Source: Olivibacter sitiensis DSM 17696 (GTDB lineage Bacteria; Bacteroidota; Bacteroidia; Sphingobacteriales; Sphingobacteriaceae). Taken from it: a stretch of DNA of 64,000 bases. A program made the position numbers and the translations under genes. The DNA lies in contig NZ_ATZA01000003.1 in assembly GCF_000427965.1 (NCBI RefSeq), positions 62,001 through 126,000 of the forward strand, given 5' to 3'. The notes beneath the pieces were generated by a model. That model searched no databases and was not told the DNA's origin. It saw only the letters and a program-made list of their open reading frames with translations. Every line of letters begins with the position of its first letter. The stretch's first letter is position 1. Below, piece after piece: positions 4,074 to 19,723 of the stretch.

Positions 4074-4838
4074 TTAGTTGAATACCTTTACGATATCAGT
4101 AAAATCCCTCGATTTCAACGAAGCCCCACCTATCAAACCGCCGTCAATATCGGCTTGGGAGAAAAGATCAGGCGCATTTTTTGGGTTGCAGCTGCCTCCA
4201 TACAATATAGTGGTATCATTTGCCAATGTCTCGTCGTATTTTTCTGCGACGCACTTACGGATATACGCGTGTACCTCTTGAGCCTGCTCAGGACTAGCAG
4301 TAAGCCCTGTACCTATAGCCCAAACCGGTTCGTAGGCCAAGACCACCTGAGCAAAAGCTTCGGCAGACAGATGAAAAACACCCTTTTGCAATTGCTCCCT
4401 AATTACCTCAAAATATTGCTCGGATTCTCTTTCTTCTTTCGTTTCGCCAACGCAATAGATCGGCTTCAATTGGAATTTTAAAGCCACGTCAATCTTTTGC
4501 GCCAGCACCTCATTAGTTTCACCGAAATAAGCCCTACGCTCGGAATGGCCTACTATGACATAACTGGCTCCAGTAGATTTGATCTGCTTGGCGGAGATCT
4601 CTCCTGTGTACGCTCCAGCTTCTTCTTGGTATAAGTTCTCTGCACCTACAGAAATCCTGTCAATACCTTTTGAAAGTTCTGCTAGTGCATAAAGGTGAAT
4701 GTAAGGACTGCAAACCACTACTTCTTGCTGACCATAAACTTCATCTTTTACCATATGGGCTATCTCGGAAAACAAACTAACACCTTCTTGGTAATCCAAG
4801 TTCATTTTCCAATTGCCTGCTACGATTTTTTTACGCAT
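4074..4838 (-). CDS. tpiA: Triosephosphate isomerase
   Basis: A 254-residue TIM-barrel enzyme of usual length. Catalytic residues are in place: Lys11 in GNWKMN, His98 in GHSERR, and Glu170 in AYEPVWAIGTG, which also begins the flexible loop 6. The phosphate-binding GGSxxPxN and GGLIGGASL segments are near the C-terminus. It interconverts dihydroxyacetone phosphate and glyceraldehyde 3-phosphate. It is 26 bp upstream of prmA and 118 bp downstream of the GlmU-like gene. Confidence 0.97.
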   Translation of the reverse strand: MRKKIVAGNWKMNLDYQEGVSLFSEIAHMVKDEVYGQQEVVVCSPYIHLYALAELSKGIDRISVGAENLYQEEAGAYTGEISAKQIKSTGASYVIVGHSERRAYFGETNEVLAQKIDVALKFQLKPIYCVGETKEERESEQYFEVIREQLQKGVFHLSAEAFAQVVLAYEPVWAIGTGLTASPEQAQEVHAYIRKCVAEKYDETLANDTTILYGGSCNPKNAPDLFSQADIDGGLIGGASLKSRDFTDIVKVFN

Positions 4839-4956
4839 CTTATAAAGTTAAAAGTTAAAAATAAAATCCTATAAAGTTCCAAGCCTGAAAGCCCCTGGCC
4901 ATGATTGTTCTTTCCTGAACGAACGGTAATTTACTGGCCAACAAACAAAGTCCCGA

Positions 4957-6147
4957 TCATCCTCTATACTTAACAGTAAGCCCAAAGACATACCGCAGTA
5001 TATTTTCCTCCGAAGTGTCAAATGTACGATTACGTCGTGCAAAAACCAATTTTGCCGTATCAATCATTTTCTCCAACTCATAGGTGGCACTATTCTCCTC
5101 ACCACCCCAAGTAAAATCGGGTACAAATTTGAGCGGAGTGCTCTGATTAAAAATACTTGCACCGACTCCCACTACGGTACCGGTATTGAATGCGGTATTG
5201 ATAGCACATTTGGCATGGTCCCCCATCAGCATCCCACAAAACTGCAGACCCGTGTTCCTATATCCCTCATCGTGGTAATCATACAACCTCACTTGCCTAT
5301 AATTGTTCTTTAGATTGGAATTGCTGGTGCCCGCACCCCAGTTGCACCATTCGCCAATGACTGCATTTCCCATATAACCTTCGTGCCCCTTGGAAGAGTT
5401 GCCCCATATCACGGAAGTATTCAGTTCGCCTCCCACCCTGCTTCCGGGGCCTACGGTCACGTTACTATAGATCTTCGCCCCCATCTTCACCTGTGAGCCT
5501 TCGCCTAACGCAAATGGCCCACGGATATACGCTCCTTCCCAGACCTCGCTGTTACGACCAAGATAGATGGGGCCCGTCTTGGTATTGAAGGTGGCACATT
5601 CGGCTACGGCCCCCTCTTCAACAAAAATTCTGTCACCTATTACCGTGTTACTACTACTTAGGCTCGCAGATGTTCTACCTCGAGTAAGTAGTTCAAAATC
5701 TTTCGCAATTTCTGCTCCATTTTGCAAAAATATAAATTCGGGAAAATGAATAATAGATAGCGGTTTTTTATAATGCTTGGCTTCAGTCCCTTTGGCTAGG
5801 TCCTCTACCACCTGATGGGCATTAACACCCTCCTCCGTATGTACCGCAATAAGAAGATCATGGTAATAGAGCGATTGGCCAGGACCTAATTCACGAACGG
5901 TATCACACAAGGCTGCATCGGGCAGCACATTGCCCCTAATGCAAATCGATTCGCCTCCATTTTGATGAAAAGGATATTTTCCTTGCAGGTATTCTGAAGT
6001 AACGACGAACACTTGCTCCCCCATCCATTTCACCCATTTTTCACGGATGGTAAGCGCTCCTATCCTCAAATCAGAAACTGGTCTGGTAAGTGCCAAAGGA
6101 TACAGGTGATTTCGCCAAGAGGCATTGTCATATAAGTAAATATGCAT
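4957..6147 (-). CDS. GlmU-like putative sugar nucleotidyltransferase with left-handed beta-helix
   Basis: 396 residues from ATG 6147; a GTG nine bases upstream would add three residues, but the family normally begins MHI. The N-terminal region resembles a nucleotidyltransferase fold (LTRPVSDLRIGALTIREKW), as in the Bacteroidota GlmU-like family. The C-terminal half (from about residue 190) has hexapeptide repeats of a left-handed beta-helix acyl- or nucleotidyltransferase (IYLGRNSEVWEGAYIRGPF region, VGPGSRVGGE). The classical GlmU pyrophosphorylase motif GxGTRM is absent, so the true reaction is uncertain. A role in sugar-nucleotide or cell-wall precursor supply is an inference from family and from the neighbouring mpl. 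Confidence 0.82.
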   Translation of the reverse strand: MHIYLYDNASWRNHLYPLALTRPVSDLRIGALTIREKWVKWMGEQVFVVTSEYLQGKYPFHQNGGESICIRGNVLPDAALCDTVRELGPGQSLYYHDLLIAVHTEEGVNAHQVVEDLAKGTEAKHYKKPLSIIHFPEFIFLQNGAEIAKDFELLTRGRTSASLSSSNTVIGDRIFVEEGAVAECATFNTKTGPIYLGRNSEVWEGAYIRGPFALGEGSQVKMGAKIYSNVTVGPGSRVGGELNTSVIWGNSSKGHEGYMGNAVIGEWCNWGAGTSNSNLKNNYRQVRLYDYHDEGYRNTGLQFCGMLMGDHAKCAINTAFNTGTVVGVGASIFNQSTPLKFVPDFTWGGEENSATYELEKMIDTAKLVFARRNRTFDTSEENILRYVFGLTVKYRG

Positions 6148-6163
6148 AGGATTCACTAATTTA

Positions 6164-6194
6164 CAAACTTAGATAAATTGCTTTTATATCCAAT
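6164..6194 (-). promoter_or_regulatory. Candidate Bacteroidota promoter for the GlmU-like/tpiA/prmA/mpl run
   Basis: On the minus strand a -7 box TAAGTTTG (6171-6164) fits TAnnTTTG exactly. ATTG at 6194-6191, one base off the TTTG -33 box, stands 19 bases upstream. The -7 box ends 16 bases before ATG 6147, so the leader would be very short. Confidence 0.45.
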
Positions 6195-6300
6195 TTAATT
6201 GAGTTGCAAAAAAGCAATTTATCGGTCTCTCCTGCCATGGAAAACTTTTTATAGAGGAAATTTATAGATTTCTCCTCTCCCGTTTCAACAGAATATCATA

Positions 6301-6334
6301 AAAATAAAAAAGTCTCGGCATATATGCCAAGACT
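6301..6334 (-). terminator. Rho-independent terminator of rpmE2
   Basis: A 10-bp stem with one mismatch (6311-6320 with 6325-6334) and a 4-nt loop. On the minus strand it is followed by an A/T tract with six consecutive T. It lies 27 bp after the rpmE2 stop. Confidence 0.85.
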
Positions 6335-6360
6335 CCACATTATCTTATAAAAATTTCCTC

Positions 6361-6606
6361 TTATTTGCTATAGCGGCTACGGAATTTGTCGATACGTCCT
6401 GCCGTATCTACCAATTTCATTTTACCTGTATAGAAAGGGTGTGAGGTATGTGAAATTTCCAATTTCACTAAGGGATATTCTTTACCATCTTCCCAAGTAA
6501 CTGTTTCTTTGGTATCAATGCATGATTTGGTTATGAAAGCATAGTCATTTGACATATCCTTAAACACTACTAACCTATAGTTTGATGGATGCAAATCTTT
6601 TTTCAT
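6361..6606 (-). CDS. rpmE2: 50S ribosomal protein L31, type B
   Basis: An 81-residue protein of typical type B L31 length. It starts [11 protein letters not shown] and carries the conserved [12 protein letters not shown] and [12 protein letters not shown] segments. The cysteine quartet of type A (zinc-binding) L31 is absent, so this is the zinc-independent form, which is the usual L31 in Bacteroidota. It stands alone between a consensus promoter at 6694-6724 and a terminator at 6301-6334. Confidence 0.97.
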
Positions 6607-7980: not shown

Positions 7981-8379
7981 ATGATACATGAGGTAACCTG
8001 CGCCATCATCCAAAAGGACGATAAGATATTGATCTGCCAGCGCTCTAAGCAGATGAAACTGCCACTCAAATGGGAATTTCCGGGAGGCAAGGTAGAGCCA
8101 AGCGAGTCGTACGAAGACTGCCTACTGCGCGAAATCTTCGAAGAGCTGGCCATCCGCGTCAGCGTACTGCGTCGGTTGACCGTGGTGGAACATCATTATG
8201 CCGGCTTTTCGATACGCCTCCACCCTTTCGTATGCCAATATGAGGATGGTGAGCTGCTCGCTGCCGAACACGCACAGACCGTCTGGGTACCCAAGGAAAA
8301 ACTGATGGACTATGACTGGGCCGAGGCCGACATACCCGTCGTGCGCGAACTGATCGTGGCAACGGACGCTTATTGGTAA
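7981..8379 (+). CDS. NUDIX hydrolase, MutT/8-oxo-dGTP diphosphatase-like
   Basis: 132 residues from ATG 7981. The Nudix box runs from Gly36 to Ile58 with the catalytic REIFEE core at residues 50-55. The usual glycine near the end of the box is alanine (Ala57). The N-terminal VTCAIIQKDDKILICQRS and WEFPGGK match MutT-like (8-oxo-dGTP or (d)CTP) hydrolases, and LKWEFPGG is typical of the 8-oxo-dGTP group. It would hydrolyse oxidised nucleotides in the cytosol. It converges on the AraC gene at 8476. Confidence 0.88.
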   Translation: MIHEVTCAIIQKDDKILICQRSKQMKLPLKWEFPGGKVEPSESYEDCLLREIFEELAIRVSVLRRLTVVEHHYAGFSIRLHPFVCQYEDGELLAAEHAQTVWVPKEKLMDYDWAEADIPVVRELIVATDAYW

Positions 8380-8475
8380 CATTGCAACAGAACATGCTGA
8401 ACATGCAATTGTTGAAGCTCCATGGCTATGAACTGAGATAGAAAAACGGATAGCCTAATAAAAAGCTATCAACTC

Positions 8476-9312
8476 TCAATTGTTCAATTTTCTGAATTCG
8501 GCGGGACTCACCTCTTTCATTTTCCTGAAAAAATGTGATAAATGACTTTCGTCCGTAAAGCCAAATTCGTACGCAATCTGTTTCATTGTAAGCGCTGGGA
8601 CCAACACGCGTTTTTCAATAAGCTTGAGGCGGTATTCGTTCACATAGTTGCGATAACTAATCTCGAATTTACGCTTGAAATAATCGCTAAAGTAAGAAGA
8701 AGCGATATTAAAGTGGGAAGCAATGCTTTTTATCTGTATAAGCGACGGATCATAAATATGCTGATGTATATAGGATATCAGTTCTTCTTTATCTGGCTGT
8801 CCGTTGTCGATACGGATATTCAGTTTTGCGGCGGCCTCTTTTATGAGACCAAAAATGGAGAGCATTTGGTAATAGACCAATGGTGAAGAGGCCACATCTT
8901 TACGGCAATTATAAGCAACGATGTTTTCCACGGTATTGCGCAAGATAGTGATACAAGGCTCGTCCATTTTCAACTTCACTTCTTTCAGGAGTTTATTCCT
9001 CATAATGGCCTCTGGAGTTGAAAGCATCAGCGCATCGGGCCGGTGCATTTTATGACCTGCAAAGTAACTGTCCGTAAATTTTATAAAAGTGAAATGGGTA
9101 CTTTTCCTGATTTCAAAGTAATGCTGGTCCTCTGGACTGATAATGAACAAATCTCCTGTCTTATACGTTAATCGATTGTTGTTCAATAGGTGCACGCCAC
9201 TCCCTTTTCGAATGTAGACAAGTTCGTAATAGGTATGGCTATGTACCGGCAGGTGAAAGATTTTCTCTTCGTAGTCGTGGATTACCAATTGTTCAAACTG
9301 GGTTTTCTTCAT
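8476..9312 (-). CDS. AraC-family transcriptional regulator with cupin sensor domain
   Basis: 278 residues. The N-terminal about 100 form a cupin-like ligand-binding domain (HLPVHSHTYYELVYIRKGSG; GDLFIISPEDQHYF). The C-terminal about 100 form the AraC double helix-turn-helix, including the conserved IAYEFGFTDESHLSHFFRKMKEVSPAEFR signature region near residues 240-272. It is transcribed divergently from the MFS transporter that starts a 12-gene run, with 88 bp between them. It is the obvious candidate regulator of that run; the ligand is unknown. Confidence 0.92.
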   Translation of the reverse strand: MKKTQFEQLVIHDYEEKIFHLPVHSHTYYELVYIRKGSGVHLLNNNRLTYKTGDLFIISPEDQHYFEIRKSTHFTFIKFTDSYFAGHKMHRPDALMLSTPEAIMRNKLLKEVKLKMDEPCITILRNTVENIVAYNCRKDVASSPLVYYQMLSIFGLIKEAAAKLNIRIDNGQPDKEELISYIHQHIYDPSLIQIKSIASHFNIASSYFSDYFKRKFEISYRNYVNEYRLKLIEKRVLVPALTMKQIAYEFGFTDESHLSHFFRKMKEVSPAEFRKLNN

Positions 9313-9387
9313 AGCAGCTTATATTCATTTACCATAAATGTACATCGATTTACTTAAATAATACAAACTAAAAAGTGAATTGATTCG

Positions 9388-9395
9388 GAACTTTG
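9388..9395 (+). promoter_or_regulatory. Near-consensus -7 box five bases before the MFS gene ATG
   Basis: GAACTTTG differs from TAnnTTTG in its first base and ends exactly five bases before ATG 9401. No TTTG -33 box stands at the expected distance, as would fit a promoter that needs the divergently encoded AraC activator. An 8-bp palindrome ATGTACAT (9338-9345) sits in the same divergent region. Confidence 0.4.
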
Positions 9396-9400
9396 TAAAT

Positions 9401-10591
9401 ATGGAAGGAGAAAAAGGACTCACGGCTTATCAAACAGGCATAATGGCTGTCAGTGCGGGGATTTGCGTTGCAAATATCTACTATATCCAGCCGTTATTGC
9501 ATGATATAGCCTCCGGTCTGCATGTTTCCGATAGCGCAATGGGAAGCGCGGCCGTACTGGCACAAGTAGGCTATGGCATTGGACTGCTTTTCATTACCCC
9601 ATTGGGAGATAAAGTAAACCGCAGAAAACTGATATTGCTATTGCAGCTTATCTTGGTATTTGCATTGCTTGGAATGACGTTTTCAAAGGGACTTTCTACC
9701 ATTTTGGCCATGAGCCTACTGATTGGGTTTCTATCGGTTGCAGCGCAGGTTATTCTTCCATTGGCCGCTTTTTTATCGGTCAAGAACAAAGGCAGAACCG
9801 TAGGTAATATCTTTACCGGCATACTGGCGGGGATATTGGCAGCAAGGGTTTTTAGCGGATTTGTCGCAGATTGGTTGGGTTGGCGCTATGTATATGGCTT
9901 AGCCGCAGGATTGGTTTTTGTTTCATCCGTCTTGCTGTATAGGGCCTTGCCCGACGTGCCGGTACTATTCAAGGGAACTTACAGCGGCTTGGTGAAATCT
10001 ACTTTACAACAAGTGACACGCTTCCCGCTCTTACGGCATACGGCCTTATTGGGAGGATTGATGTTTGGCGCTTTCTGTTCGTTTTGGACCAACCTTACCC
10101 TTCATCTTAGTGGCTCGCCCTTTTATTATAGTACCGATACTATAGGTTTATTCGGCATCCTTGCCATCGCCTCGGTCCTGTTGGCCCCCGTCTTCGGGAA
10201 ACTTGCCGATAAGGGAGTACCTCGGTTGTCCCAGTTGATGGGCATTATTATCGTGATAGCAGGAATAGTGTTTACGCTGATATTTCCAAATAGTTTATGG
10301 GCTATACTACTGGCAGTCCTACTGCTCGACATAGGCGTACAGGCCGTGCAGGTGACCAATGTCGCTGTAATCTATACACTTGACGAACATGCACATAGCC
10401 GAATCAATACCGTTTATATGACCTCCTATTTTCTGGGAGGTGCATTGGGCACATTTACAGGCCTTTTATGTTGGAAAGCAGGCGGCTGGCAAGCGGTATG
10501 CATACAGCTGCTCCTATTGGCTGTGTCGGGCGCTTTGCTTGCTATAGGCGGGTTCCGTAAAAGAAAATTGCAACAAGCAACTATTAAATAA
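9401..10591 (+). CDS. MFS transporter, first gene of the periplasmic-redox operon
   Basis: 396 residues from ATG 9401 (an upstream TTG at 9380 is less likely). About 12 hydrophobic segments. The loop 2-3 motif GDKVNRRKLI is the MFS signature (G-D-x-x-x-R-R-K). The N-terminal ANIYYIQPLL is typical of a drug:H+ antiporter-like MFS group in Bacteroidota and Proteobacteria. It probably moves a small organic substrate or product of the downstream enzymes across the inner membrane. It opens a run of 12 same-strand genes with gaps of 2-74 bp or short overlaps. Confidence 0.9.
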   Translation: MEGEKGLTAYQTGIMAVSAGICVANIYYIQPLLHDIASGLHVSDSAMGSAAVLAQVGYGIGLLFITPLGDKVNRRKLILLLQLILVFALLGMTFSKGLSTILAMSLLIGFLSVAAQVILPLAAFLSVKNKGRTVGNIFTGILAGILAARVFSGFVADWLGWRYVYGLAAGLVFVSSVLLYRALPDVPVLFKGTYSGLVKSTLQQVTRFPLLRHTALLGGLMFGAFCSFWTNLTLHLSGSPFYYSTDTIGLFGILAIASVLLAPVFGKLADKGVPRLSQLMGIIIVIAGIVFTLIFPNSLWAILLAVLLLDIGVQAVQVTNVAVIYTLDEHAHSRINTVYMTSYFLGGALGTFTGLLCWKAGGWQAVCIQLLLLAVSGALLAIGGFRKRKLQQATIK

Positions 10592-10608
10592 TTTTTAAAA
10601 CAAATCAT

Positions 10609-10893
10609 ATGCTTACCGTCATTGCAAAGATAACCGCTAAAAAAGCGCTGATAAAAGAGACAAAAGAAGTACTGCAGGCGCTCGTGCCACCTACTTTGGC
10701 AGAAGAAGGCTGCCTACAATATGACCTGCACCAGGGAACTACGGAAAACCATGTATTCTTCTTTTACGAAACATGGGAAAGCCGCCAGCATCTGGAAGAA
10801 CACCTGGCCAATAGCCATTTGATAGCATTCAAACAAAAAGCGGAAAACCTGCTACAGCGGCCAATGGAGGTGTTCATGTTGAATAAAATATAA
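10609..10893 (+). CDS. ABM-domain putative quinol monooxygenase
   Basis: 94 residues, the usual size of single-domain antibiotic-biosynthesis monooxygenase (ABM) proteins. It starts MLTVIAKITAKKA and has the hallmark GCLQYDLHQGTTENHVFFFYETWES core with His and Trp/Glu of the active-site face, and ends in a HLIAFKQKAENLL helix. YgiN-like relatives oxidise quinols without cofactor; other relatives act on polyketide phenols or haem. It is 17 bp after the MFS gene. A cytosolic role on a quinol or phenol is an inference. Confidence 0.85.
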   Translation: MLTVIAKITAKKALIKETKEVLQALVPPTLAEEGCLQYDLHQGTTENHVFFFYETWESRQHLEEHLANSHLIAFKQKAENLLQRPMEVFMLNKI

Positions 10894-10908
10894 CCATAAA
10901 ACGATGCG

Positions 10909-11499
10909 ATGGAAAGAAGGAAATTCATACAGGCAGGCAGCTTCATAGTTGCCGCATTTCTGCTTAAACATAATCTATATGCGATGCATTTAACGATAAC
11001 GCCCAAAACTTTTTATTTTAAGGATGACGGCCTTATCCCCAACAGCAAGTATCCTTTACTGGTGTACCAAAATGCCTTCACGCAGCGAGGAAGCAAAGGC
11101 GGCGATTGGCTTGAAGAAAAATTTGCGGTCAACCATTGGACAAACACCTGGCGCTGGGGAGTCTACCCTTTTCACCATTACCACAGCAATACCCACGAGG
11201 TGCTAGGCGTATTCAGTGGCACTGCCCTCTTGCACATGGGTGGCGAACAAGGAGAGAAAATGCAAGTACAAGCGGGAGACATCCTGGTCATACCCGCCGG
11301 GGTGGGACACAAATGTATCTCGCATAGCAATGACTTTACCGTATTGGGGGCTTATCCAAATGGCCTATCGCCAGATTTGAAGAAGGGCGAAAAAGGTGAA
11401 CGCCCTAAAACGGACCATAATATTGCCGCAGTAAAATTCCCTGCCACTGATCCTTTTTTGGGCAAGGGTGGTGGCTTAATCAAAATTTGGAAAACATGA
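10909..11499 (+). CDS. Cupin-domain protein with Tat-like signal (YjlB-type)
   Basis: 196 residues. The N-terminus has a twin-arginine motif (RRKFIQ, residues 3-8) followed by a hydrophobic stretch ending near LYA, pointing to Tat export of a folded metal-loaded protein. A single cupin fold follows: motif 1 HYHSNTHE (residues 90-97) and motif 2 GDILVIPAGVGHK (123-135), supplying the His/Glu metal ligands. The WxWGVYPFHHYHSNTHEVLG stretch resembles the YjlB-like cupins of unknown function. It overlaps the next gene by 4 bp (ATGA). Confidence 0.85.
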   Translation: MERRKFIQAGSFIVAAFLLKHNLYAMHLTITPKTFYFKDDGLIPNSKYPLLVYQNAFTQRGSKGGDWLEEKFAVNHWTNTWRWGVYPFHHYHSNTHEVLGVFSGTALLHMGGEQGEKMQVQAGDILVIPAGVGHKCISHSNDFTVLGAYPNGLSPDLKKGEKGERPKTDHNIAAVKFPATDPFLGKGGGLIKIWKT

Positions 11500-12647
11500 A
11501 AACAAAACTTGTAAAATATACCTCTATCCTCCTTCTTTCACTAATAGGTAGTATCATGCAAACACAAGCGCAAATGCCCCATACCTATCCACCCGGCATC
11601 ACTCTGGCACATAGTTTTGCGGATGTGGAACCCGCAGGAATTACACTTAGTGAAAACGGTCGCCTCTTTATGTGCTTGCCTCGTGGTGGCGTAAACCACA
11701 AGCATCCTTCGGTAGTGGAAATTATCGATGGCAAGGCGGTAGCCTTTCCCAATAAAGCGATAAACCAAAACGTCGATACCGACCTGCCCCATCATTTGGT
11801 ATCGGTATTGGGCATTACCCTATACAAAAACACCCTTTGGATTTTGGACCAAGGCAAACGAGCAGGCATCGATGGCATTCCAGATGGAAGCACCAAAATA
11901 GTGGCGGTAGATATCAATACCAAAGAGGTGATCAAGAACATCCCCATTCCACGGCCGTTTTTCCGCGAGACCATACAGCTCAACGATTTGCGCTTCGATC
12001 CCACCCACGGCAAGGAAGGTACTATCTATATTTCCAACAATGGATTTGCCAAACCGGACCAGTCCATTATCGTGGCCGACGTTGCAACGGGCAAATTGAG
12101 GGAACTGTTTAGAGACGCACCGGAAGTATCGCCGGTAAAAGGATTTATGACCTATGTGGAAGGCTTTCCGCATACGCTAAGCTATGAGAAGCCTACCATG
12201 CCACAGGGAGGCGTTAACGGTATCGAATTGAGCCCGGATTTCAAAACCTTATACTGGACGATACCCACCAATCCAAATTTCTACAGCATCCCCACCGAAA
12301 TCATCAGTGATGCCCATTTGTCGGAAAGTGACATAAAAAAAGCAATCAAATGGGAAGGACAGATTGTTTCTAACGGTGGTATTACCATCGACGAAGAAGG
12401 TACGCTCTATTTTGGCGATGCCTCGCGGTACAGTATCCTGAAGAAAGATACCGCCGGCAATGTGTCCTTAGCTGCTTACGATCCCCGCCTGATCTGGCCC
12501 GACGGCATGATTTATTGGAAAGGCAACTTGTACGTCACCATCGGCCAATGGCATCGGGCACCGGGCCTCAACGATGGCAAGGATTTAAGGCACGGGCCTT
12601 ATGAAGTATTGAAAATCCCTATTACGGAAAAAGCAAAAAATCAATAG
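11496..12647 (+). CDS. Secreted royal-jelly/Yellow-family beta-propeller protein (paralogue A)
   Basis: 383 residues from ATG 11496, which overlaps the upstream stop (ATGA). A Sec signal ends near TQAQ. The rest matches the major royal jelly protein/Yellow family (six-bladed propeller; insect relatives are linked to dopachrome chemistry): LSENGRLFMCLPRGG, LWILDQGKR, LNDLRFDPTHGKEGTIYISNNGF, GVNGIELSPDFKTLYWT. Bacterial members are often labelled L-dopachrome tautomerase-related, but their substrate is not known. It is one of three paralogues in this operon (also 15999 and 17130). Confidence 0.87.
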   Translation: MKTKLVKYTSILLLSLIGSIMQTQAQMPHTYPPGITLAHSFADVEPAGITLSENGRLFMCLPRGGVNHKHPSVVEIIDGKAVAFPNKAINQNVDTDLPHHLVSVLGITLYKNTLWILDQGKRAGIDGIPDGSTKIVAVDINTKEVIKNIPIPRPFFRETIQLNDLRFDPTHGKEGTIYISNNGFAKPDQSIIVADVATGKLRELFRDAPEVSPVKGFMTYVEGFPHTLSYEKPTMPQGGVNGIELSPDFKTLYWTIPTNPNFYSIPTEIISDAHLSESDIKKAIKWEGQIVSNGGITIDEEGTLYFGDASRYSILKKDTAGNVSLAAYDPRLIWPDGMIYWKGNLYVTIGQWHRAPGLNDGKDLRHGPYEVLKIPITEKAKNQ

Positions 12648-12649
12648 AT

Positions 12650-13198
12650 ATGAACTATCAGAAAACAGAAGTAAGGGCTATTGACCATATCGGCATTACC
12701 GTGCCCGACATAGCCGAAGCAGCTGAATTTTTGGAAAAAGCATTTGGCGCAACGGCCATTTACGACAATATCGTCCCCGCGGACGAGCCTACACAAGGCC
12801 CAGATGCGGAAGCCAAACTGGGCATTGCGAAAGGGACGGCCGTGGTACACATGCGCATGATGCGCATTGGCGACGGCGCCTGCATAGAACTATTTGAAAT
12901 GAAAGTCCCCGGCCAGCGCCAGCAGAACATCATTCCGTCCGACATCGGCTTGCAGCACTTTGCGGTGTACACGGATGATATCGAAAAAACCAAGGAGAAA
13001 TTCCTGAAAGCCGGAGGTAGGCTCTTAAAAGGCCCCAATGACATGTTGGGCCGTGAGGGCGGCGAAGGCAACCAATTTATGTACGCAGTGACGCCTTGGG
13101 GCACCTTTGTGGAATTGATCACCTATCCATCCGAGTTGGAAATAGAAAAAACAACCGTTTTGCGCAGGTGGAAACCACAACCTGGCAAAGAGGAATAA
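12650..13198 (+). CDS. VOC-superfamily (glyoxalase/epimerase-like) metalloenzyme
   Basis: 182 residues with two beta-alpha-beta-beta-beta modules. A full set of metal ligands can be seen: His13 (IDHIGI), Glu80 (CIELFE), His103 (LQHFAVY) and Glu155 (TFVELITY), the H-E-H-E arrangement of glyoxalase I and methylmalonyl-CoA epimerase. The sequence is closer to generic VOC proteins than to either named enzyme. There is no signal peptide, so it is probably cytosolic. It starts 2 bp after the propeller gene. The substrate is unknown. Confidence 0.85.
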   Translation: MNYQKTEVRAIDHIGITVPDIAEAAEFLEKAFGATAIYDNIVPADEPTQGPDAEAKLGIAKGTAVVHMRMMRIGDGACIELFEMKVPGQRQQNIIPSDIGLQHFAVYTDDIEKTKEKFLKAGGRLLKGPNDMLGREGGEGNQFMYAVTPWGTFVELITYPSELEIEKTTVLRRWKPQPGKEE

Positions 13199-13223
13199 AT
13201 TCGTTCACTTAAAAGCTATAGCA

Positions 13224-13748
13224 ATGAATACGCGCACGAAAGATATCGTAAAGGGAATAGCCGTAGGACTGATAGCATCGTGGATCAAGTCTTTGGCAGA
13301 GCCTCCCCTACAGGATTTGGGCGAAAGGTATTTCCCTCCCAAACCCAACCAGCTGAAGCTGAAAGGAGCAGACGTGAACAGGCAACCGGAAAACATGCCG
13401 CCATCGGTACTGGCAAAAAAAGTATACCATGCTTCTACGGGCAAAGAGCTGTCGAAAAAAGACACCCTCAAAGCCATGAAGTTTATTCATTACACCTTGG
13501 GAACCGTGATTGCCATCACCTACGTAAGCTTGGTCAATCGCCATAAACAACTAAAAATCGAGGAAGGCCTTACGGCGGGCGCAGCCGTCTGGGCAGCCAC
13601 GCACGGATCGGTGGTACCGGCACTTGGCCTACAGGGCAAGGTAAAAGCCATGCCCAAGTCCTGGTGGGTCTGGGAATTTGGTTCCCACCTGGTTTTTGGT
13701 GTGGCTATGGAACAAGGCAGGAAATTGGCAAACAAAATTATCAAGTGA
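13224..13748 (+). CDS. YagU-family (DUF1440) inner-membrane protein
   Basis: 174 residues with hydrophobic segments at about 8-20, 88-105, 118-135 and 148-162. The KGIAVGLIASWIKSLAEPPLQD start and the PPSVLAKKVYHA and WWVWEFGSHLVFG segments match the YagU/DUF1440 membrane family (in E. coli linked to acid resistance). Its role in this operon is not known. It begins 25 bp after the VOC gene. Confidence 0.78.
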   Translation: MNTRTKDIVKGIAVGLIASWIKSLAEPPLQDLGERYFPPKPNQLKLKGADVNRQPENMPPSVLAKKVYHASTGKELSKKDTLKAMKFIHYTLGTVIAITYVSLVNRHKQLKIEEGLTAGAAVWAATHGSVVPALGLQGKVKAMPKSWWVWEFGSHLVFGVAMEQGRKLANKIIK

Positions 13749-13778
13749 CAAACCGTACAATAAGCAAAAAACAAAAAG

Positions 13779-14285
13779 ATGAAAAAATTTATTTTGCTCG
13801 CGTTGATAGGCATCTCAATAAACAATACCATGAAAGCACAAGTTTTAAAGGGCAGCAATTGGTCTGCAAAAAAGGTAGACAGCACCTATATAGTAAGCGT
13901 TCAGGATAAATCCAGCATACTGGATGCCCTGACCGATTTTGTCGTGACCCAAAAGATACAGGCCGGCCAGATAACCGGCATTGGCGCCGTAAACGAAGCC
14001 ACGCTTCGTTTCTTCAACCCCGAAACAAAAAAATATGTAGACAAAACATTTCAGGAACAAATGGAGGTGAGCAACCTCTCTGGCAACATTTCGGAGGTGG
14101 AGGGCAAGCCCATGTTGCACCTGCACATTACCCTAGGCAAAAGCGATTATACCGCCCTGGCCGGGCATTTGTTGGACGCCAAAATACGGGGAGCCGGTGA
14201 GTTCTTTATCTACCCATTGGACAACCACGTAGTGAAAGTGAAAAACGAGGCAGTAGGATTGAATTTCTATGATTTCGACAAATAA
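13779..14285 (+). CDS. PPC/DUF296-domain protein with signal peptide
   Basis: 168 residues. An N-terminal signal-like segment (KKFILLALIGISI) is followed by one PPC/DUF296 domain: ITGIGAVNEATLRFFNPETK, GNISEVEGKPMLHLHITLGKSD, GHLLDAKIRGAGEFFI. The His-rich HLHI strand and GH pair are the putative metal-binding residues of bacterial PPC proteins. PPC domains occur in plant AT-hook proteins, but bacterial solo forms are not DNA binders by default. A second ATG at codon 18 would give a cytosolic form, so export is likely but not certain. Confidence 0.82.
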   Translation: MKKFILLALIGISINNTMKAQVLKGSNWSAKKVDSTYIVSVQDKSSILDALTDFVVTQKIQAGQITGIGAVNEATLRFFNPETKKYVDKTFQEQMEVSNLSGNISEVEGKPMLHLHITLGKSDYTALAGHLLDAKIRGAGEFFIYPLDNHVVKVKNEAVGLNFYDFDK

Positions 14286-14319
14286 TTGTATTCATCCGTA
14301 AAAGGAAATGTAATTCATT

Positions 14320-14994
14320 ATGAAGTACATATATGTATTGTTACTCAATATAACAATGGTCTTGGTTTCGCTCACCTCCTGTGGGCAAGCAAGGCAAGAG
14401 GACACAAAAACAGCTACAGTTATGCTACAGCAGAACACGGTCATCGGCATTATCGGTTCAGGTAATGTCGGTGGCACACTGGGAGAAAAATGGGCGAAAG
14501 CCGGATACAAAGTACTGTTCAGCAGCCGCCACCCGGAAGAATTAACCGATTTGGTGAAATCTGCCGGCAACGGTGCCGAGGCCGTTTCTGTGGAAGAGGC
14601 GGCAAAACGGGGCGAGATTATCGTGCTGGCCGTCCCATTTATGGCAGAAGCCACGGTAAGCAAGCAGATACAGCCTTTTGTGAAAGGCAAGATAGTGCTT
14701 CTTTGCGACAATGCTTATCCCGGAAGGGATGGCGCAATTGCAGAAGAGGCCAAACGGGTGGGCGTAGCTTACTATGCACAACAGCATTATTACCCGGAAG
14801 TAGCGTTGATAAGGGCTTTCAGCTCATTGCCCATAGCCACGGTAGCAAGGGCCACGGCCAGCAACCCCGTGAAGATCCCCTATGCGGCAGACAACGATCG
14901 GGCAAAAGCCATTGCGGAAGAACTCATCAGGGCGGCAAACGGAACAGCCGAATATGTCGGAAAGATCGCAGACAGTCGGCAGCTTGACTACTAA
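14320..14994 (+). CDS. NADP/F420-type oxidoreductase Rossmann protein, apparent lipoprotein
   Basis: 224 residues. As annotated, the N-terminus is a lipoprotein signal with lipobox LTSC (Cys21). It is followed by a Rossmann fold GIIGSGNVGG (residues 43-52) of the coenzyme F420-dependent NADP oxidoreductase family, with SSRHPEE after the second strand, suiting NADP(H) binding. The family works in the cytosol; a periplasmic lipoprotein form would be odd. An internal ATG at codon 35 (14422) lies just ahead of the Rossmann strand and could give a cytosolic enzyme of normal family size. Confidence 0.8.
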   Translation: MKYIYVLLLNITMVLVSLTSCGQARQEDTKTATVMLQQNTVIGIIGSGNVGGTLGEKWAKAGYKVLFSSRHPEELTDLVKSAGNGAEAVSVEEAAKRGEIIVLAVPFMAEATVSKQIQPFVKGKIVLLCDNAYPGRDGAIAEEAKRVGVAYYAQQHYYPEVALIRAFSSLPIATVARATASNPVKIPYAADNDRAKAIAEELIRAANGTAEYVGKIADSRQLDY

Positions 14995-15063
14995 CTTCGA
15001 GCAAAAAAACATAATTACGCAATCTCAAAAATTGAAAAACAGCTATATTTTACCGTTCCAACA

Positions 15064-15924
15064 ATGAAAAATGCCCCTGATTTTTTGCCGCAATTAACCG
15101 GCTCTTTTGCGCAGCCAGCTGCTGAAAACCCTACTGTCGCCATGGTAGAGGCGGCCTATCGGCATCATGGTTTGCACTTCCGCTATATCAATTGCGAGGT
15201 AAGCCCCGAAAATTTAAAAGCAGCCGTAGACGGTGCTCAAGCAATGGGATGGACCGGGTTTAACTGTTCCATACCGCACAAGGTGGCGGTAATACCATAT
15301 CTGGATGGTCTTGGTAAATCGGCCAGCTTGATTGGTGCAGTCAATACCATTGTAAAAAGAGACGGACAATGGATAGGCGAAAATACGGATGGCAAGGGCT
15401 TTGTACAGGCATTACGCGAAGCGATCGACCCTAATGAAAAACACATCACCCTGTTTGGCGCCGGTGGCGCTGCCAGGGCCGTTGCCGTAGAGCTGGCATT
15501 GGCGGGAGCGGCAAGCATTACCTTGGTCAACCGCAGTAAAGAACGCGCAGAAGCGGTCGTTGCCCTACTGAACGAACATACCAACGCCAGGGCGAGCTAC
15601 CATCCCTGGACGGACCGTTACGCCATCGACCTTTCCTCAGACATCGTCATCAATGCCACCAGCGTAGGTTTGTTCCCCAACGTGCAGGAGCAATTGAACA
15701 TCGATTTCGATAGCATTACACCAGATATGGTAGTAGCCGACGGCATTCACAATCCACCGGACACGCATTTTCTGAAAACCGCAGCGGCCAAAGGTTGCAA
15801 AACCGTAAACGGTTTGCAGATGTTAGTAAACCAAGGAGTAATTGGCATTAAGTACTGGACAGGTGTGGATGTGGACCCAACGGTGATGCACGCCGCATTA
15901 AAAAAAGTTTTGGACATACACTAG
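15064..15924 (+). CDS. Shikimate dehydrogenase-like (AroE family) enzyme with altered substrate site
   Basis: 286 residues. AroE family features: catalytic Lys73 in FNCSIPHK, Asp109 in ENTDGKGF, Rossmann loop FGAGGAARA (131-139), INATSVGL and the GLQMLVNQG C-terminal signature. The usual N-terminal SxSPxxHN loop, whose two serines hold the shikimate carboxylate, reads AENPTVAM at residues 20-27. Both serines are replaced, so shikimate is probably not the true substrate. Its position in a catabolic-looking operon also argues against the chorismate pathway. NADP- or NAD-linked oxidation of a related polyol or cyclic hydroxy acid is possible. Confidence 0.85.
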   Translation: MKNAPDFLPQLTGSFAQPAAENPTVAMVEAAYRHHGLHFRYINCEVSPENLKAAVDGAQAMGWTGFNCSIPHKVAVIPYLDGLGKSASLIGAVNTIVKRDGQWIGENTDGKGFVQALREAIDPNEKHITLFGAGGAARAVAVELALAGAASITLVNRSKERAEAVVALLNEHTNARASYHPWTDRYAIDLSSDIVINATSVGLFPNVQEQLNIDFDSITPDMVVADGIHNPPDTHFLKTAAAKGCKTVNGLQMLVNQGVIGIKYWTGVDVDPTVMHAALKKVLDIH

Positions 15925-15998
15925 TACTAGATTGTTGTTTTTCTTTAGAGGCACTTGGACAAACGTTTTGAGCTTATTGAATTTAAATAGTAAAAATC

Positions 15999-17114
15999 AT
16001 GAAATACTTTTTCAAACTGGCAATATTTTCACTGTTAACCATAAACATCCATACCGCCATGGCACAAAATGACTATGAGGTAATAGCCCGCATCGCTCCG
16101 CCAGACCCAGACATGTCTGGCATAGCCGTCAGCTCGGACAACCGCGTGTTCCTGGGCTTTCCGCGCCATGCTGATAATCATACGGCCTTTGCATTGGCAG
16201 AATTGGTAGACGGCAAGCCCATCCCCTTTCCCAACAAAGACTATGTGTACCCCTCCACAAAACCATACGCAGATTGGTTGGTATCGCCGCATGGCATGTA
16301 CATGGATACTCGGGATGTGTTGTGGGTATTGGACGACGGAAAGCGTTCCGGCATCAAGGAAATTCCCGAGGGCGCTGCCAAGGTGGTCGCCATAGACATC
16401 AAAACCGGCAAAATAGTACACTCCTTGGTAATCGGTAAACCAATATTGTCAGACGACGCACACTACAACGACTTACGGGTAGACTTGACCCACGGAGAAC
16501 AGGGAACCGTTTATATCGCCAACTCCGGCTTTGGCGAATACTTTTCACTGGTCGTCATCGACGTGGCCAGCGGCAAGGTAAGGCAGGTCCTGCTCAACCA
16601 TTACAGCACCTCGCCCGACATCGACTTTATGGGCTTTCTGGAAGGTCAGGCACATGTGTACAACTTCAAAAACCCAACATTCCCCATCGGGGGTGCCGAT
16701 GGCATTTCAATAAGTCCCGATAGTAAGACCTTATATTGGACCAGCATTACCGGCAGGAAACTATACAGCATAGCCACGGATGTACTGTGCGATGCCGAAG
16801 CCAGCAACCAGCAAGTCATCAAGGCCGTAAAAGACCTGGGCGAGCGCCCCGCCTGTGACGGGCTGGCAGAAGACGAACAGGGCAATATCTATTTCGGGGC
16901 CTTCGAGCAGCAATCCATCATCAAGCGCACCACCGACGGACAATACCACCTGCTTGCCCATGATAAGGACAATTTCGTGTGGCCCGATGGCCTAGCCTAT
17001 CGCAATGGCTACGTGTACGTCACCCTTGGCCAGTGGAACCGCCTTCCGGGATTCAATGGCGGAAAAGATTTGAGAAAACCGCCTTTTCTGGTAGTTAGAA
17101 TTAAAAGTGAATAA
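15999..17114 (+). CDS. Secreted royal-jelly/Yellow-family beta-propeller protein (paralogue B)
   Basis: 371 residues. A Sec signal ends near AMAQ. Propeller motifs run in parallel with paralogue A: SSDNRVFLGFPRHAD, LWVLDDGKRSGI, YNDLRVDLTHGEQGTVYIANSGF, GGADGISISPDSKTLYWTS, FVWPDGLAYRNGYVYVT. The substrate-side WPDG and LTHG motifs are well kept, so it is likely functional. It lies 74 bp after the AroE-like gene and 15 bp before paralogue C. Confidence 0.87.
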   Translation: MKYFFKLAIFSLLTINIHTAMAQNDYEVIARIAPPDPDMSGIAVSSDNRVFLGFPRHADNHTAFALAELVDGKPIPFPNKDYVYPSTKPYADWLVSPHGMYMDTRDVLWVLDDGKRSGIKEIPEGAAKVVAIDIKTGKIVHSLVIGKPILSDDAHYNDLRVDLTHGEQGTVYIANSGFGEYFSLVVIDVASGKVRQVLLNHYSTSPDIDFMGFLEGQAHVYNFKNPTFPIGGADGISISPDSKTLYWTSITGRKLYSIATDVLCDAEASNQQVIKAVKDLGERPACDGLAEDEQGNIYFGAFEQQSIIKRTTDGQYHLLAHDKDNFVWPDGLAYRNGYVYVTLGQWNRLPGFNGGKDLRKPPFLVVRIKSE

Positions 17115-17129
17115 TTAGAAATAAAAGCA

Positions 17130-18215
17130 ATGATAAAAATAGTCCGTTTAATACTCATTGGTAGCTTATTGGCTATCAATAGCATGGCACAGACAAAGGC
17201 CCCAGAACTGACGGTGGTTGCCACTACAACAGAACGCAACTGGAATGGATTGGCCGTATCTAACGACAAACGCATCTTTGCAGATTTCCCCCGCTGGGAA
17301 AAAGGAGACAATCCTTCGGTAGTAGAAATTAAAGAGGGCAAAGAAATACCGTTTCCGGGTGGTACATGGAACGAATGGCAATCTGGTAAAGACCCGAAAA
17401 CAGCCTTTGTTTCCGTCAATTCCTTGTATCTGAACAGAGCAGACAACCATCTTTGGGTGACGGACTCTGGCGATCCCTTTGGGGATAGCAATGTGCTAGG
17501 GGCGCCCAAATTGGTCGAAATAGACCTAGCAACCGATGAAGTGGTCAATGTCTTTTTATTCGATGAAACCTTTGCACCGACAGGAAGCCACTTGAATGAC
17601 ATTCGTATTTCAGGAGACCATGTCTTTGTCACAGAATCCGGAACTGGAGCAATTTTGGTATTGAACAGAAAAACGAAAACGATTAGAAGGCTCTTGGCCA
17701 TGTCGGTACTTACCAAGGCCGACCCGAAGGCGCAGCCAGTAGTAGATGGTTTCAGGCTGCAGGGAGAAGACGGAAAGACACCGGCCATCCATGCCGATCA
17801 GATAGAACTTTCGCCCGATGCAAAGACCTTGTATTTCATGAGCCCTTTTGGCCCTAATCTCTACAAAATTGCGGTTGCCGACTTGCTGAACGAAAAGCTT
17901 ACCGACGCAGATTTGGAAAAGCGCGTCACAGTAGACCGCAAAGTGAATCCGGTGGGGGGCATTATCATGGATGCCAATGGGAATTTGTACCTATCCGAGG
18001 TAGAAACCAAGAGTATTCGTTGCGAAGGCGCCGACAAAAAAACAAAATGGATACTACAGGACGACAGATTGGTATGGCCAGATGCCTATTCCATTACACC
18101 CGATGGCACCTTTTACATCGTGGTAGCACAGATCTCCAACATGTCATTCATGCGTAAAGGCGAAGATCTAAGGCAAGCACCGTATTACATATTTAGTTTC
18201 AAACCAACTGACTAA
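17130..18215 (+). CDS. Secreted royal-jelly/Yellow-family beta-propeller protein (paralogue C)
   Basis: 361 residues. A signal ends near SMAQ. It has the same family blades (SNDKRIFADFPRWEK, LWVTDSGDPFG, HLNDIRISGDHVFVTESG, HADQIELSPDAKTLYFMS, LVWPDAYSITPDGTFYIV). It is the most divergent of the three: the THG motif of A and B is missing and WPDG reads WPDA. A different substrate or a binding role is possible. It is 6 bp upstream of the aldo/keto reductase. Confidence 0.85.
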   Translation: MIKIVRLILIGSLLAINSMAQTKAPELTVVATTTERNWNGLAVSNDKRIFADFPRWEKGDNPSVVEIKEGKEIPFPGGTWNEWQSGKDPKTAFVSVNSLYLNRADNHLWVTDSGDPFGDSNVLGAPKLVEIDLATDEVVNVFLFDETFAPTGSHLNDIRISGDHVFVTESGTGAILVLNRKTKTIRRLLAMSVLTKADPKAQPVVDGFRLQGEDGKTPAIHADQIELSPDAKTLYFMSPFGPNLYKIAVADLLNEKLTDADLEKRVTVDRKVNPVGGIIMDANGNLYLSEVETKSIRCEGADKKTKWILQDDRLVWPDAYSITPDGTFYIVVAQISNMSFMRKGEDLRQAPYYIFSFKPTD

Positions 18216-18221
18216 TTTACT

Positions 18222-19349
18222 ATGGACAGAAGAAAATTTATTAAGCAAAGCTCAGTGGCCACGGCTGGACTGGTAGCCAGTACTTCCATCCCAGCATATG
18301 CTTCCACATTTGTAAAATCAAGTAATATGACATCACCATTTGAAAATTCAGGACAGCACAGAAGATTTCGCCCCAAGTACAAAGCTGGCTTCGGCGGCGT
18401 GGCCCTGGGCAACGGATTTCAGCAGAATCCAGATATAGAATGCATCCAATCGGTAGAGGCCGCCTGGGATGCAGGTATACGCTATTTCGATACCTCACCT
18501 TGGTATGGCCTGGGTATCAGTGAGCGCCGCATGGGGATGTACTTAAAGGACAAACCCAGGGAAGAATTCGTTCTTTCTACCAAAGTAGGCCGCCTCTTGC
18601 CCCCGCATGAAAATTTCAAACTGGAACGTGGCCTGTGGAAGAGCAAGCTCAATTTTGAATACAAATACGATTATACTGCCGCAGGCGTACGTCGCAGCGT
18701 GGAGGACAGCCTCCAACGCCTCGGCCTGTCATCGCTGGATATCGTTTTTATTCACGACCTATCTCCGGACAATGGCGACATGAAGGAAAATTGGGTGAAG
18801 TATTTTGATGAAGCCGCCACAGGAGCCATGCCCGAGCTGACCAAAATGCGCGAAGAAGGACTCATCAAGGCTTGGGGATTTGGGGTTAACACCATCGAGC
18901 CCATATTGAAGGCCATCGAAGTTGCCGACCCGGACATTTTCCTTTCTGCCTGTCAGTACTCGCTCATCAAGCACGAGGACGACCTGAACAAGGTATTTCC
19001 CAAAGCAGCAGAAAGAGATATTTCCATCGTGGTGGGCGCTCCCCTGTGTGCGGGCTTTTTGGCAGGAAAAGACCGTTATTTATACGATGGTAAGTTTCCA
19101 GATGGCGTCAAGGAAAAATTGGCAGCGCTGAAACGAGTGGCCGCCAACCACCAAGTAGATTTGAGAACGGCAGCCTTACAGTTTGCGGCCGCTCCCGACG
19201 TAGTTTCTGGCGTTATACCGGGAGCACATACCGCGCAGCAGGCACAGGAAAATGCCGCGTCTTTCAAGGCGAAAATCCCGACTGGTTTCTGGGCAGAGTT
19301 AAAAAGCGAAAAGCTAATAGCAGAAAATGCGCCTACGCCTAACGTTTAG
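18222..19349 (+). CDS. Aldo/keto reductase with Tat-like signal, last gene of the operon
   Basis: 375 residues. The N-terminus has the twin-arginine motif RRKFIK (residues 3-8) and a hydrophobic stretch ending PAYA, suggesting Tat export with the cofactor bound. The catalytic tetrad of aldo/keto reductases is present: Asp90 and Tyr95 (YFDTSPWYG), Lys121 (STKVG) and His178 (FIHD). Late motifs (VVSGVIPGAHTAQQAQEN) match L-fucose/galactose dehydrogenase-like AKRs. It starts 6 bp after paralogue C and ends the 12-gene run; a repeat array and terminator follow. Confidence 0.9.
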   Translation: MDRRKFIKQSSVATAGLVASTSIPAYASTFVKSSNMTSPFENSGQHRRFRPKYKAGFGGVALGNGFQQNPDIECIQSVEAAWDAGIRYFDTSPWYGLGISERRMGMYLKDKPREEFVLSTKVGRLLPPHENFKLERGLWKSKLNFEYKYDYTAAGVRRSVEDSLQRLGLSSLDIVFIHDLSPDNGDMKENWVKYFDEAATGAMPELTKMREEGLIKAWGFGVNTIEPILKAIEVADPDIFLSACQYSLIKHEDDLNKVFPKAAERDISIVVGAPLCAGFLAGKDRYLYDGKFPDGVKEKLAALKRVAANHQVDLRTAALQFAAAPDVVSGVIPGAHTAQQAQENAASFKAKIPTGFWAELKSEKLIAENAPTPNV

Positions 19350-19371
19350 TCTTTAGGATTTTTAGTAGAAG

Positions 19372-19691
19372 CAGTCTCACAAGACGGGCCGTCATTGCAA
19401 ACGGGATTGCTTCACTCCTGGCACAACCCCACCCTTCCGGTTCGCAATGACACCTGTACGAAACGTCACTGCGAGGAACGAAGCAGTCTCACACAGACGG
19501 GCCGTCATTACAAACGGGATTGCTTCACTCCTGGCACAACCCCACCCTTCCGGTTCGCAATGACACCTGTACGAAACGTCACTGCGAGGAACGAAGCAGT
19601 CTCACACAGACGGGCCGTCATTGCAAACGGGATTGCTTCACTCCTGGCACAACCCCACCCTTCCGGCTCGCAATGGCGCCTGCACAACACC
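19372..19691. repeat. Tandem repeat array, about 113-bp unit, nearly three copies
   Basis: Copies begin at 19372 (112 bp), 19484 (113 bp) and 19597 (partial, to about 19691) and differ by only a few bases. Each unit holds a GCGAGGAACGAAGCAGTCTC-like segment and its near inverse (GGGATTGCTTC), so it can fold. It closely resembles widespread GCGAGGCACGAAGCAATC-type intergenic repeats, one of which also occurs at 41007-41032. The array lies between the AKR stop and the operon terminator. Frames that stay open through it are repeat artefacts. Confidence 0.9.
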
Positions 19692-19692: not shown

Positions 19693-19723
19693 AGGTGACT
19701 CTGATTAATAGGGTCACCTTTTT
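19693..19723 (+). terminator. Rho-independent terminator of the 12-gene operon
   Basis: AGGTGAC (19693-19699) pairs with GTCACCT (19713-19719), directly followed by five T. The first arm, lengthened to 10 bp (19693-19702), can instead pair perfectly with 19736-19745. A second, mutually exclusive hairpin without a T tract is therefore possible. Confidence 0.7.

Follow-up and report, generated by a model that had tools for sequence, protein, structure and literature searches.

What would a bacterium do with three apparently secreted relatives of the insect Yellow and major royal jelly proteins (MRJPs), encoded in one run with oxidoreductases next to a regulator of the AraC type? This question is raised by a 64,000-nucleotide stretch of DNA from Olivibacter sitiensis DSM 17696, the whole of which we call the window. 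It carries twelve complete open reading frames (ORFs), all on the forward strand, at positions 9401-19349, and in front of them a divergent gene for an AraC/XylS-type regulator (8476-9312, reverse strand); this operon sits on contig C23 of the 5.05-Mb genome. The reading that we prefer, with a confidence that stops somewhat short of even, is that the operon belongs to one inherited and probably mobile AraC regulon, which would consist of two units and would handle a carbonyl-rich small molecule, mostly in the periplasm. By its conservation, the operon is a real inherited unit, beyond what chance would give.

The layout described in the initial annotation of this DNA, namely same-strand genes that overlap or lie 2-74 bp apart, is borne out by the ORF coordinates, which give distances of 17, 15, -4, 2, 25, 30, 34, 69, 74, 15 and 6 bp in gene order. 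The family names it had assigned to the twelve genes hold in Pfam (in order MFS_1, ABM, Cupin_2, MRJP, Glyoxalase, DUF1440, PCC, F420_oxidored, Shikimate_dh_N/SDH_C, MRJP, MRJP and Aldo_ket_red), and the divergent regulator has both HTH_18 (64.7 bits) and AraC_binding (37.7 bits), i.e., the C-terminal double helix-turn-helix and the N-terminal ligand domain. Its broader claim, a single operon with its own regulator and mostly exported enzymes, is supported, and there is conserved co-occurrence with a shared operator.

Conservation among relatives

MRJP genes are patchily distributed, being found in 19 of 120 genomes with O. sitiensis itself counted. A search of 296 Chryseobacterium-family genomes for the second MRJP of the operon, MRJ2 (15999-17114, forward strand), gave orthologues at E<=1e-80 in ten, and these ten together with Pustulibacterium marinum provide the eleven relatives' clusters compared here. 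Their MRJ2 orthologues are 66-75% identical to that of the window, and in all eleven clusters MRJ2 is accompanied by a divergent AraC orthologue (45-73% identity), an amidohydrolase gene and at least one aldo/keto reductase (AKR) gene; some of the contigs end near the cluster, and the Pustulibacterium AraC was read from a separate region, L213. The conserved core is AraC, MRJ2, amidohydrolase and AKR. Around it, an AKR of the window's type is present in seven of the eleven clusters, the PCC gene in five (64-77% identity), the first MRJP gene (MRJ1) in four, the MFS gene (52-65%), the cupin gene and the VOC gene in three each, and the ABM-domain genes and the third MRJP gene (MRJ3) in two each. 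VOC identity is 70-81% in L204, L210 and L125. In eight clusters a HIBADH-like Rossmann enzyme replaces the window's Rossmann lipoprotein. The AroE-like gene occurs only in the cluster of Pustulibacterium, and the DUF1440 gene (13224-13748, forward strand; PF07274), which encodes a membrane protein, in none of the eleven.

The co-occurrence anticipated in the initial annotation, of MRJP, cupin, AroE-like and AKR genes, is thereby found in part: the unit as such is conserved in all eleven relatives, its exact set in Pustulibacterium alone. One relative matches in gene order, L204, where orthologues of seven genes (MFS, cupin, MRJ1, VOC, PCC, MRJ2 and MRJ3) follow each other as in the window with different insertions, and where the run ends in an AKR of another subfamily. 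In L204 the cupin is split over two ORFs, and both MRJ1 and VOC are short, so that this locus may be decayed or misassembled. That the window merely holds a chance run of unrelated genes is extremely improbable. Such a run would accord with three genes (those for DUF1440, the Rossmann lipoprotein and the AroE-like enzyme) that none or hardly any of the relatives' clusters contain, but it is already contradicted by conservation, given the seven collinear genes of L204, the adjacency of AraC in 11/11 clusters and the shared operator.

The Pustulibacterium cluster (AroE-like enzyme 80% and VOC protein 81% identical) was found when an alignment of AKRs was used to scan named genomes, the best 80 of 566 confirmed loci being considered. 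Partial clusters were seen among these 80 in Chryseobacterium, Epilithonimonas and Gynurincola, and most of the 80 have only the AKR in common with the operon. Little synteny was found in a pass over 20 regions, comprising other MRJPs of relatives and the second MRJP locus of O. sitiensis itself: L043 has MRJP-cupin-AKR and L044 MRJP-AKR, L035 (MRJP, MFS, ABM, AraC) and L034 (two MRJPs, AraC) are looser sets, and the remainder show an MRJP alone, or with a distant AraC or another weak match. The MRJPs of this pass belong to other subfamilies, and in the tree described below 19 rows of this kind are placed in none of the three groups. Of 20 regions around cupin homologues, four hold at least two operon genes.

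Two further arrangements were observed. The cupin gene lies immediately 5' of a Tat-type AKR gene in L120, L126, L151, L162 and L184, which suggests a minimal two-enzyme module in five genomes. A genome of the window's own family has six genes in the order cupin-PCC-VOC-AKR (74%)-HIBADH-like-ABM, with no MRJP (L080, 9647-13471).

With respect to mobility, the Pustulibacterium cluster is flanked by two genes that share one strand and are 99% identical to each other (L212 9743-10813 and L213 8441-9646). The one that was scanned is a tyrosine integrase, which suggests that the cluster may be mobile. As to the window, all four congeners retain the block at 1323-6606, to the left of the operon, and have no operon nearby. 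A clean empty site was not found in these four, as the right border fails to align, and the beta-lactamase-like gene to the right of the operon has one partial match among them.

The regulator, its predicted operator and a second unit

The gap between the AraC gene and the operon contains a direct repeat, TACA-N17-TACA, followed 26 bp on by TTTG (9341-9395, forward strand). A repeat of this type, TACA-N17-TACA/C with a period of 21 bp, is found in 15 of 15 loci, namely the window, the eleven clusters and three loci where the AraC occurs in the absence of MRJ2 (L107, L112 and L126); the Chryseobacterium-like loci make up eight of these 15 and are not independent. TTTG lies 27 bp beyond the repeat in 12 of the 15, if the 26 bp of the window are included. 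A period of 21 was seen in 12/12 regions, and any other period between 8 and 44 in at most two. The product of the shuffle tests, 3e-18 over nine regions with single values of 0.001-0.05, is not a probability, because the regions tested also supplied the motif, and several are related. The TACA repeats are predicted AraC binding sites just 5' of what would be a Bacteroidota-type promoter, and AraC would act there as an activator. In the window and in L204, TTTG stands only a few bases 5' of the ATG of the MFS gene (9401-10591, forward strand; scanned from 9404, one codon after its likely start), so that either the message is leaderless, or a later start codon is used, or TTTG is not the -7 element.

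The repeat is also found beside AraC paralogues of 29-33% identity, and the operator is therefore a trait of the subfamily. The second MRJP locus of the genome (L038, C22:61000-79700, at 8100-11950) has a Tat-type gene, an MRJP gene and a small secreted gene, together with a divergent AraC (31%) and two sites of the 21-bp-repeat type.

A scan of the whole O. sitiensis genome with the pattern TACA-N17-TACAA-N23-27-TTTG gave five matches, versus two for the reversed pattern used as control. One of the five is the window site itself. Another, on contig C31, ends 77 bp 5' of an amidohydrolase gene that is followed by an AKR gene. The other three comprise two within ORFs and one 85 bp before a sigma-factor-like ORF. 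The window operon has no amidohydrolase gene, and a separate homology search for it gave the same C31 gene (E 6e-182). When seven cluster amidohydrolases were compared with the C31 enzyme, six showed 60-65% identity and the remaining one 51%. Of eight AKRs compared with the C31 AKR, four showed 67-71% identity and four belong to other subfamilies. Since the operator scan and the homology search converge on the same amidohydrolase-AKR pair, the regulon is probably split in two. The window operon is thus probably not the whole pathway, and the C31 unit is likely to be served by the same AraC regulator. The nearest relatives of the Pustulibacterium amidohydrolase are arginine carboxypeptidase and prolidase-type enzymes.

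The 3' end of the operon is less sharply drawn than had been proposed. A terminator-like hairpin is indeed present (19693-19719, forward strand; 11 pairs then TTTT, a match to the consensus only), but it lies about 340 bp past the last stop, and terminator-like sites in the region number 18 versus 14.5 in shuffled sequence (standard deviation 3.1), which is hardly more. Between the last gene and the hairpin, at 19368-19682, is a 113-bp tandem repeat of 2.8 copies with 97% match. Elsewhere in the window, an ORF of repeated KNSPNxRKLW units (41270-41845) is probably no real gene.

The encoded enzymes and the candidate substrate

MRJ1 (11496-12647), MRJ2 and MRJ3 (17130-18215), all on the forward strand, score 49.4, 95.5 and 58.4 bits against PF03022, each above the cut-off of 19.8 bits. 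In a tree of 39 rows each of them is gathered into a single group supported at 100%; the MRJ2 sequences of the window and L204 are sisters, and so are their MRJ3 sequences, which argues that the three propellers are old paralogues that have travelled together. MRJ2 has 28 alignment columns that do not vary among 22 MRJPs. MRJ2 is the one for which a structure was modelled, and its AlphaFold2 model (predicted local distance difference test, pLDDT, 84.5) has the propeller fold of the MRJP/Yellow family. The top match is 2qe8, an uncharacterised "putative hydrolase" (Z 40.1, root-mean-square deviation (rmsd) 2.7, 324 residues aligned), followed by the dopachrome conversion enzyme 9w1k (Z 36.3, rmsd 2.8, 329 aligned) and MRJP1 (5yyl, Z 35.8). 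The model also resembles a Diels-Alderase propeller (7x36, Z 28.3) and the lactonase RPA3624 (Z 25.1), and the SMP-30 model PF08450 is matched at 32.6 bits (cut-off 26.3), within residues 230-315 only.

Public plasmid records label bacterial members of this family "L-dopachrome tautomerase-related" or "major royal jelly family", and in the literature searched we found no measured activity for any of them. On plasmids, their genes neighbour a zinc alcohol dehydrogenase and ABM genes (Pantoea), a zinc alcohol dehydrogenase and MFS genes (another Pantoea region), a glutamine-amidotransferase-type gene with NADH:flavin oxidoreductase and VOC genes (Sphingomonas), or an alpha/beta hydrolase gene (Deinococcus), i.e., they keep redox company in three of four annotated regions.

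These resemblances raise the possibility that the operon detoxifies plant, fungal or insect compounds of a phenolic, quinone or dopachrome-like kind. It would fit the match of MRJ2 to the dopachrome conversion enzyme and to MRJP1, the ABM, EthD and several VOC proteins of the Pustulibacterium cluster, and the plasmid MRJPs that lie beside zinc alcohol dehydrogenase and ABM genes or beside glutamine-amidotransferase-type and NADH:flavin oxidoreductase genes. Furthermore, an "L-dopachrome tautomerase-related protein" has been placed in melanin synthesis, an in silico assignment by genome analysis alone according to the accessible part of that report (PMC12654741). However, a common fold is not an activity, the closest match 2qe8 is uncharacterised, and the enzymes resembling ketofructose reductase and L-galactose dehydrogenase point to sugars, such that we consider this explanation unlikely.

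ABM, EthD, cupin and VOC folds also occur in tailoring enzymes, and a Diels-Alderase propeller is among the fold matches, as would be expected of a cluster that makes or modifies a small secreted metabolite. We regard this as improbable: the window operon has no enzyme that makes a scaffold, and a variable set of oxidoreductases linked to AraC better fits inducible processing.

For Flavobacterium akiainvivens, in which three MRJPs occur in one genome, it was proposed, as far as the accessible text goes, that such exported proteins are eukaryote-like and mimic the host (PMC6801697). The window proteins do look secreted, and MRJ2 does have the Yellow fold. MRJ2 is nevertheless tied to an operon of metabolic enzymes in 12 loci, the window included, and because of this context the operon argues for metabolism and makes host mimicry, as set out in the accessible part of PMC6801697, very improbable here.

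The AroE-like enzyme (15064-15924, forward strand) bears on the chemistry. Its assignment in the initial annotation stands as far as the fold is concerned, and TIGR00507 (AroE) is passed with 213 bits over a cut-off of 200.2. However, among solved structures the enzyme comes closest to 5-ketofructose reductase (7cok, E 6.3e-92), and shikimate dehydrogenase (1nvt, E 1.2e-61) comes next. The HSxS motif, the shikimate-carboxylate motif of shikimate dehydrogenase, is missing: ENPT stands where 1nvt has HSFS, and NPTVAM is common to the window enzyme and 7cok at this place. A housekeeping AroE was ruled out, since the genome's other AroE, on contig C100, carries the usual HSFS. Both the greater closeness to 5-ketofructose reductase and the missing HSxS lead us to favour a keto-sugar over a quinate-like substrate. 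The gene is rare, being found at E<=1e-55 only in its own genome among 395 sampled genomes of the phylum. In a search of plasmids, four of 20 matched records have a homologue with 66-68% identity, and the rest lie below 41%. On all three annotated plasmids of the four, which are alphaproteobacterial (L187, L188 and L189), an AraC gene diverges from a GMC oxidoreductase gene followed by "aroE", and on the fourth, unannotated one a long FAD-type ORF lies upstream of the homologue. The "shikimate dehydrogenase" genes of L187-L189 are probably keto-sugar enzymes labelled aroE.

According to the accessible part of PMC7954740, the known 5-ketofructose reductases include one relative of shikimate dehydrogenases and two AKRs that most resemble 2,5-diketogluconate enzymes. 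This latter class, recognised by eye, may be represented in L125, L208, L209 and L210.

The best solved structure for the window's own AKR (18222-19349, forward strand; PF00248) is L-galactose dehydrogenase (E 1.7e-23). In line with the Tat signals and the lipoprotein of the initial annotation, this AKR and the cupin (10909-11499, forward strand; Cupin_2) open with RRxF twin-arginine motifs and the F420_oxidored-type Rossmann protein (14320-14994, forward strand; PF03807) with the lipobox LTSC; these motifs, like the signal-like starts of the MRJPs and of the PCC (PPC) domain protein (13779-14285, forward strand; PF03479, 98 bits), were read by eye, and they predict export. RRxF was likewise found near the start of 54 of 73 AKR-locus ORFs called in the best 80 of 566 loci, and for loci L106-L134 the count is 24 of 29 ORFs. 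In the cupin, three His and one Glu (HxH...E...H) make up a complete site, presumably binding a metal, which is invariant in five of five aligned sequences. Its fold was not used as evidence, since acireductone dioxygenase (1vr3) and a sugar 3,4-ketoisomerase (4mzu) tie at about Z 8 with a model of pLDDT 74. The MFS transporter (MFS_1, 139 bits) is weakly Bcr/CflA-like and falls below the cut-off of all NCBIfam models, and the ABM protein (10609-10893, forward strand; PF03992, 67 bits) scores 25.5 bits against the LsrG-type isomerase model NF007791 (cut-off 135). The VOC-fold enzyme (12650-13198, forward strand) was assigned through Glyoxalase.

Could the operon then serve growth on a keto-sugar, cyclitol or sugar lactone, with uptake by the MFS carrier after periplasmic steps? 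The enzymes resembling ketofructose reductase and L-galactose dehydrogenase would fit this, as would the GMC oxidoreductase beside the AroE-like homologue on plasmids, and AraC regulators often sense sugars. Against it, Pfam recognised no kinase, aldolase, CoA enzyme or SusC/SusD among the twelve genes, and the gene set varies among relatives while the oxidoreductases stay; we therefore take this catabolic explanation to be rather unlikely. A polysaccharide utilisation locus was ruled out by the lack of a SusC/SusD pair among the twelve genes. Anti-phage defence was also considered, and seven proteins compared with PADLOC-DB gave zero matches.

In the regulon that we prefer, the AraC-type regulator would sense a carbonyl-rich compound, most likely a diketose or keto-sugar and next a quinone, would bind the TACA direct repeats with their 21-bp spacing, and would switch on both the window operon and the C31 amidohydrolase-AKR unit. 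The exported set would consist of the Tat-type AKR, the metal cupin, the three propellers, the PCC protein, the Rossmann lipoprotein and the amidohydrolase, a predicted lipoprotein, and these enzymes would reduce, isomerise or hydrolyse the compound in the periplasm. What enters the cell would be handled by the cytosolic ketofructose-reductase-like, VOC and ABM proteins, and the MFS carrier would move substrate or product. Carbonyl reductases, hydrolase-type proteins and propellers are indeed the parts that recur across clusters, with the isomerase-like cupin in some. As no enzyme joining a product to central metabolism was recognised by Pfam among the twelve genes, a complete catabolic route is less favoured, and we infer an inducible biotransformation or detoxification. 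The gene set, its conservation, the shared repeat and the second unit are read from the sequence; binding, activation, the class of substrate, export and the biotransformation or detoxification are inferred. A bolder version, which we hold to be possible though doubtful, is that three ancient and non-interchangeable propellers, the metal cupin, the exported AKRs and the ketofructose-reductase-like enzyme work one after another on a single compound of diketo or quinone-like type, as a horizontally moving periplasmic redox pathway with AraC and its 21-bp operator.

Several observations weigh against the regulon as drawn here. Exported NAD(P) enzymes need a bound cofactor. The cupin, VOC, ABM and MRJ3 genes occur in a minority of the eleven clusters, and the ketofructose-reductase-like gene, present in one of them, cannot define the core. 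TTTG is not at its usual place in L208, L209 and L210, three of the 15 loci. Since the repeat also stands beside AraC paralogues, one of them at the MRJP locus on C22, it could be this C22 paralogue that controls the C31 unit. Amidohydrolase homologues (50-60% identity) occur in all four congeners, which have neither the cluster nor a site upstream of the gene; in one of them, G002, the gene lies tail-to-tail with that of an AraC homologue (46%), which has a repeat-type site in front that points away. Finally, membership of the AroE-like family does not prove activity, because a shikimate-dehydrogenase-like homologue from Clostridium was inactive on 5-ketofructose, according to the accessible part of PMC7954740.

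Significance and comparison with known systems

The initial annotation knew no named pathway for this gene set, and the literature searched, which includes few subscription papers, describes no such cluster either. Within it, the domains are known, and what appears to be new is their combination, together with the operator and the split of the regulon. Three bacterial MRJPs are here placed under a defined regulator with a predicted operator, beside partner enzymes and with a candidate class of substrate, which makes induction and deletion tests on them straightforward. The 21-bp repeat makes such regulons searchable in other genomes, as it has here led to a second, unlinked unit. Our comparison also suggests that some "shikimate dehydrogenase" labels in AraC clusters are carried by ketofructose-reductase-like enzymes. 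If the bolder version is true, the bacterial relatives of the insect Yellow family would acquire a metabolic context.

In this context, the closest regulatory parallel that we see is the YqhC-YqhD/YqhE system for reactive aldehydes in E. coli, which according to the accessible part of PMC5297802 comprises an AraC/XylS activator, an aldehyde reductase and an AKR. Both systems have a divergent AraC/XylS regulator beside carbonyl-reducing enzymes that include an AKR, an arrangement seen in the window and in 11/11 relatives, and both may respond to electrophiles. However, the window has twelve genes whose products are mostly exported, and its MRJPs, cupin and PCC protein, like the amidohydrolase, have no counterpart there. 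The YqhD family consists of iron-type alcohol dehydrogenases, and as Pfam found no such domain in the twelve genes, the operon is not a member of this system and shares only a similar logic.

With 5-ketofructose reductase (7cok; the Tatumella enzyme of PMC7954740, of which part of the text was accessible) the window enzyme has in common the AroE fold and NPTVAM in place of HSFS, but the window enzyme, ketofructose-reductase-like by its sequence, lies in a multi-enzyme AraC operon. The plasmid units L187-L189 share the divergent AraC and the AroE-like homologue of 66-68% identity, whereas they are units of two genes and have no MRJP among their annotated neighbours. An Azotobacter plasmid carries ABM, AKR (59.5%), NAD(P) oxidoreductase and cupin genes side by side, as the window carries their like, yet this proteobacterial locus has a LacI-type regulator and no MRJP; its full order, after the LacI gene, is ABM-AKR-NAD(P) oxidoreductase-cupin-amidohydrolase-MBL (L101, 6485-12667). 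Finally, the window's propellers resemble the dopachrome conversion enzyme, MRJP1 and 2qe8 in scoring above the PF03022 cut-off and in the fold seen for MRJ2, and they differ from the Yellow/MRJP proteins in being bacterial, in forming three distinct paralogues in one operon, and in their metabolic context.

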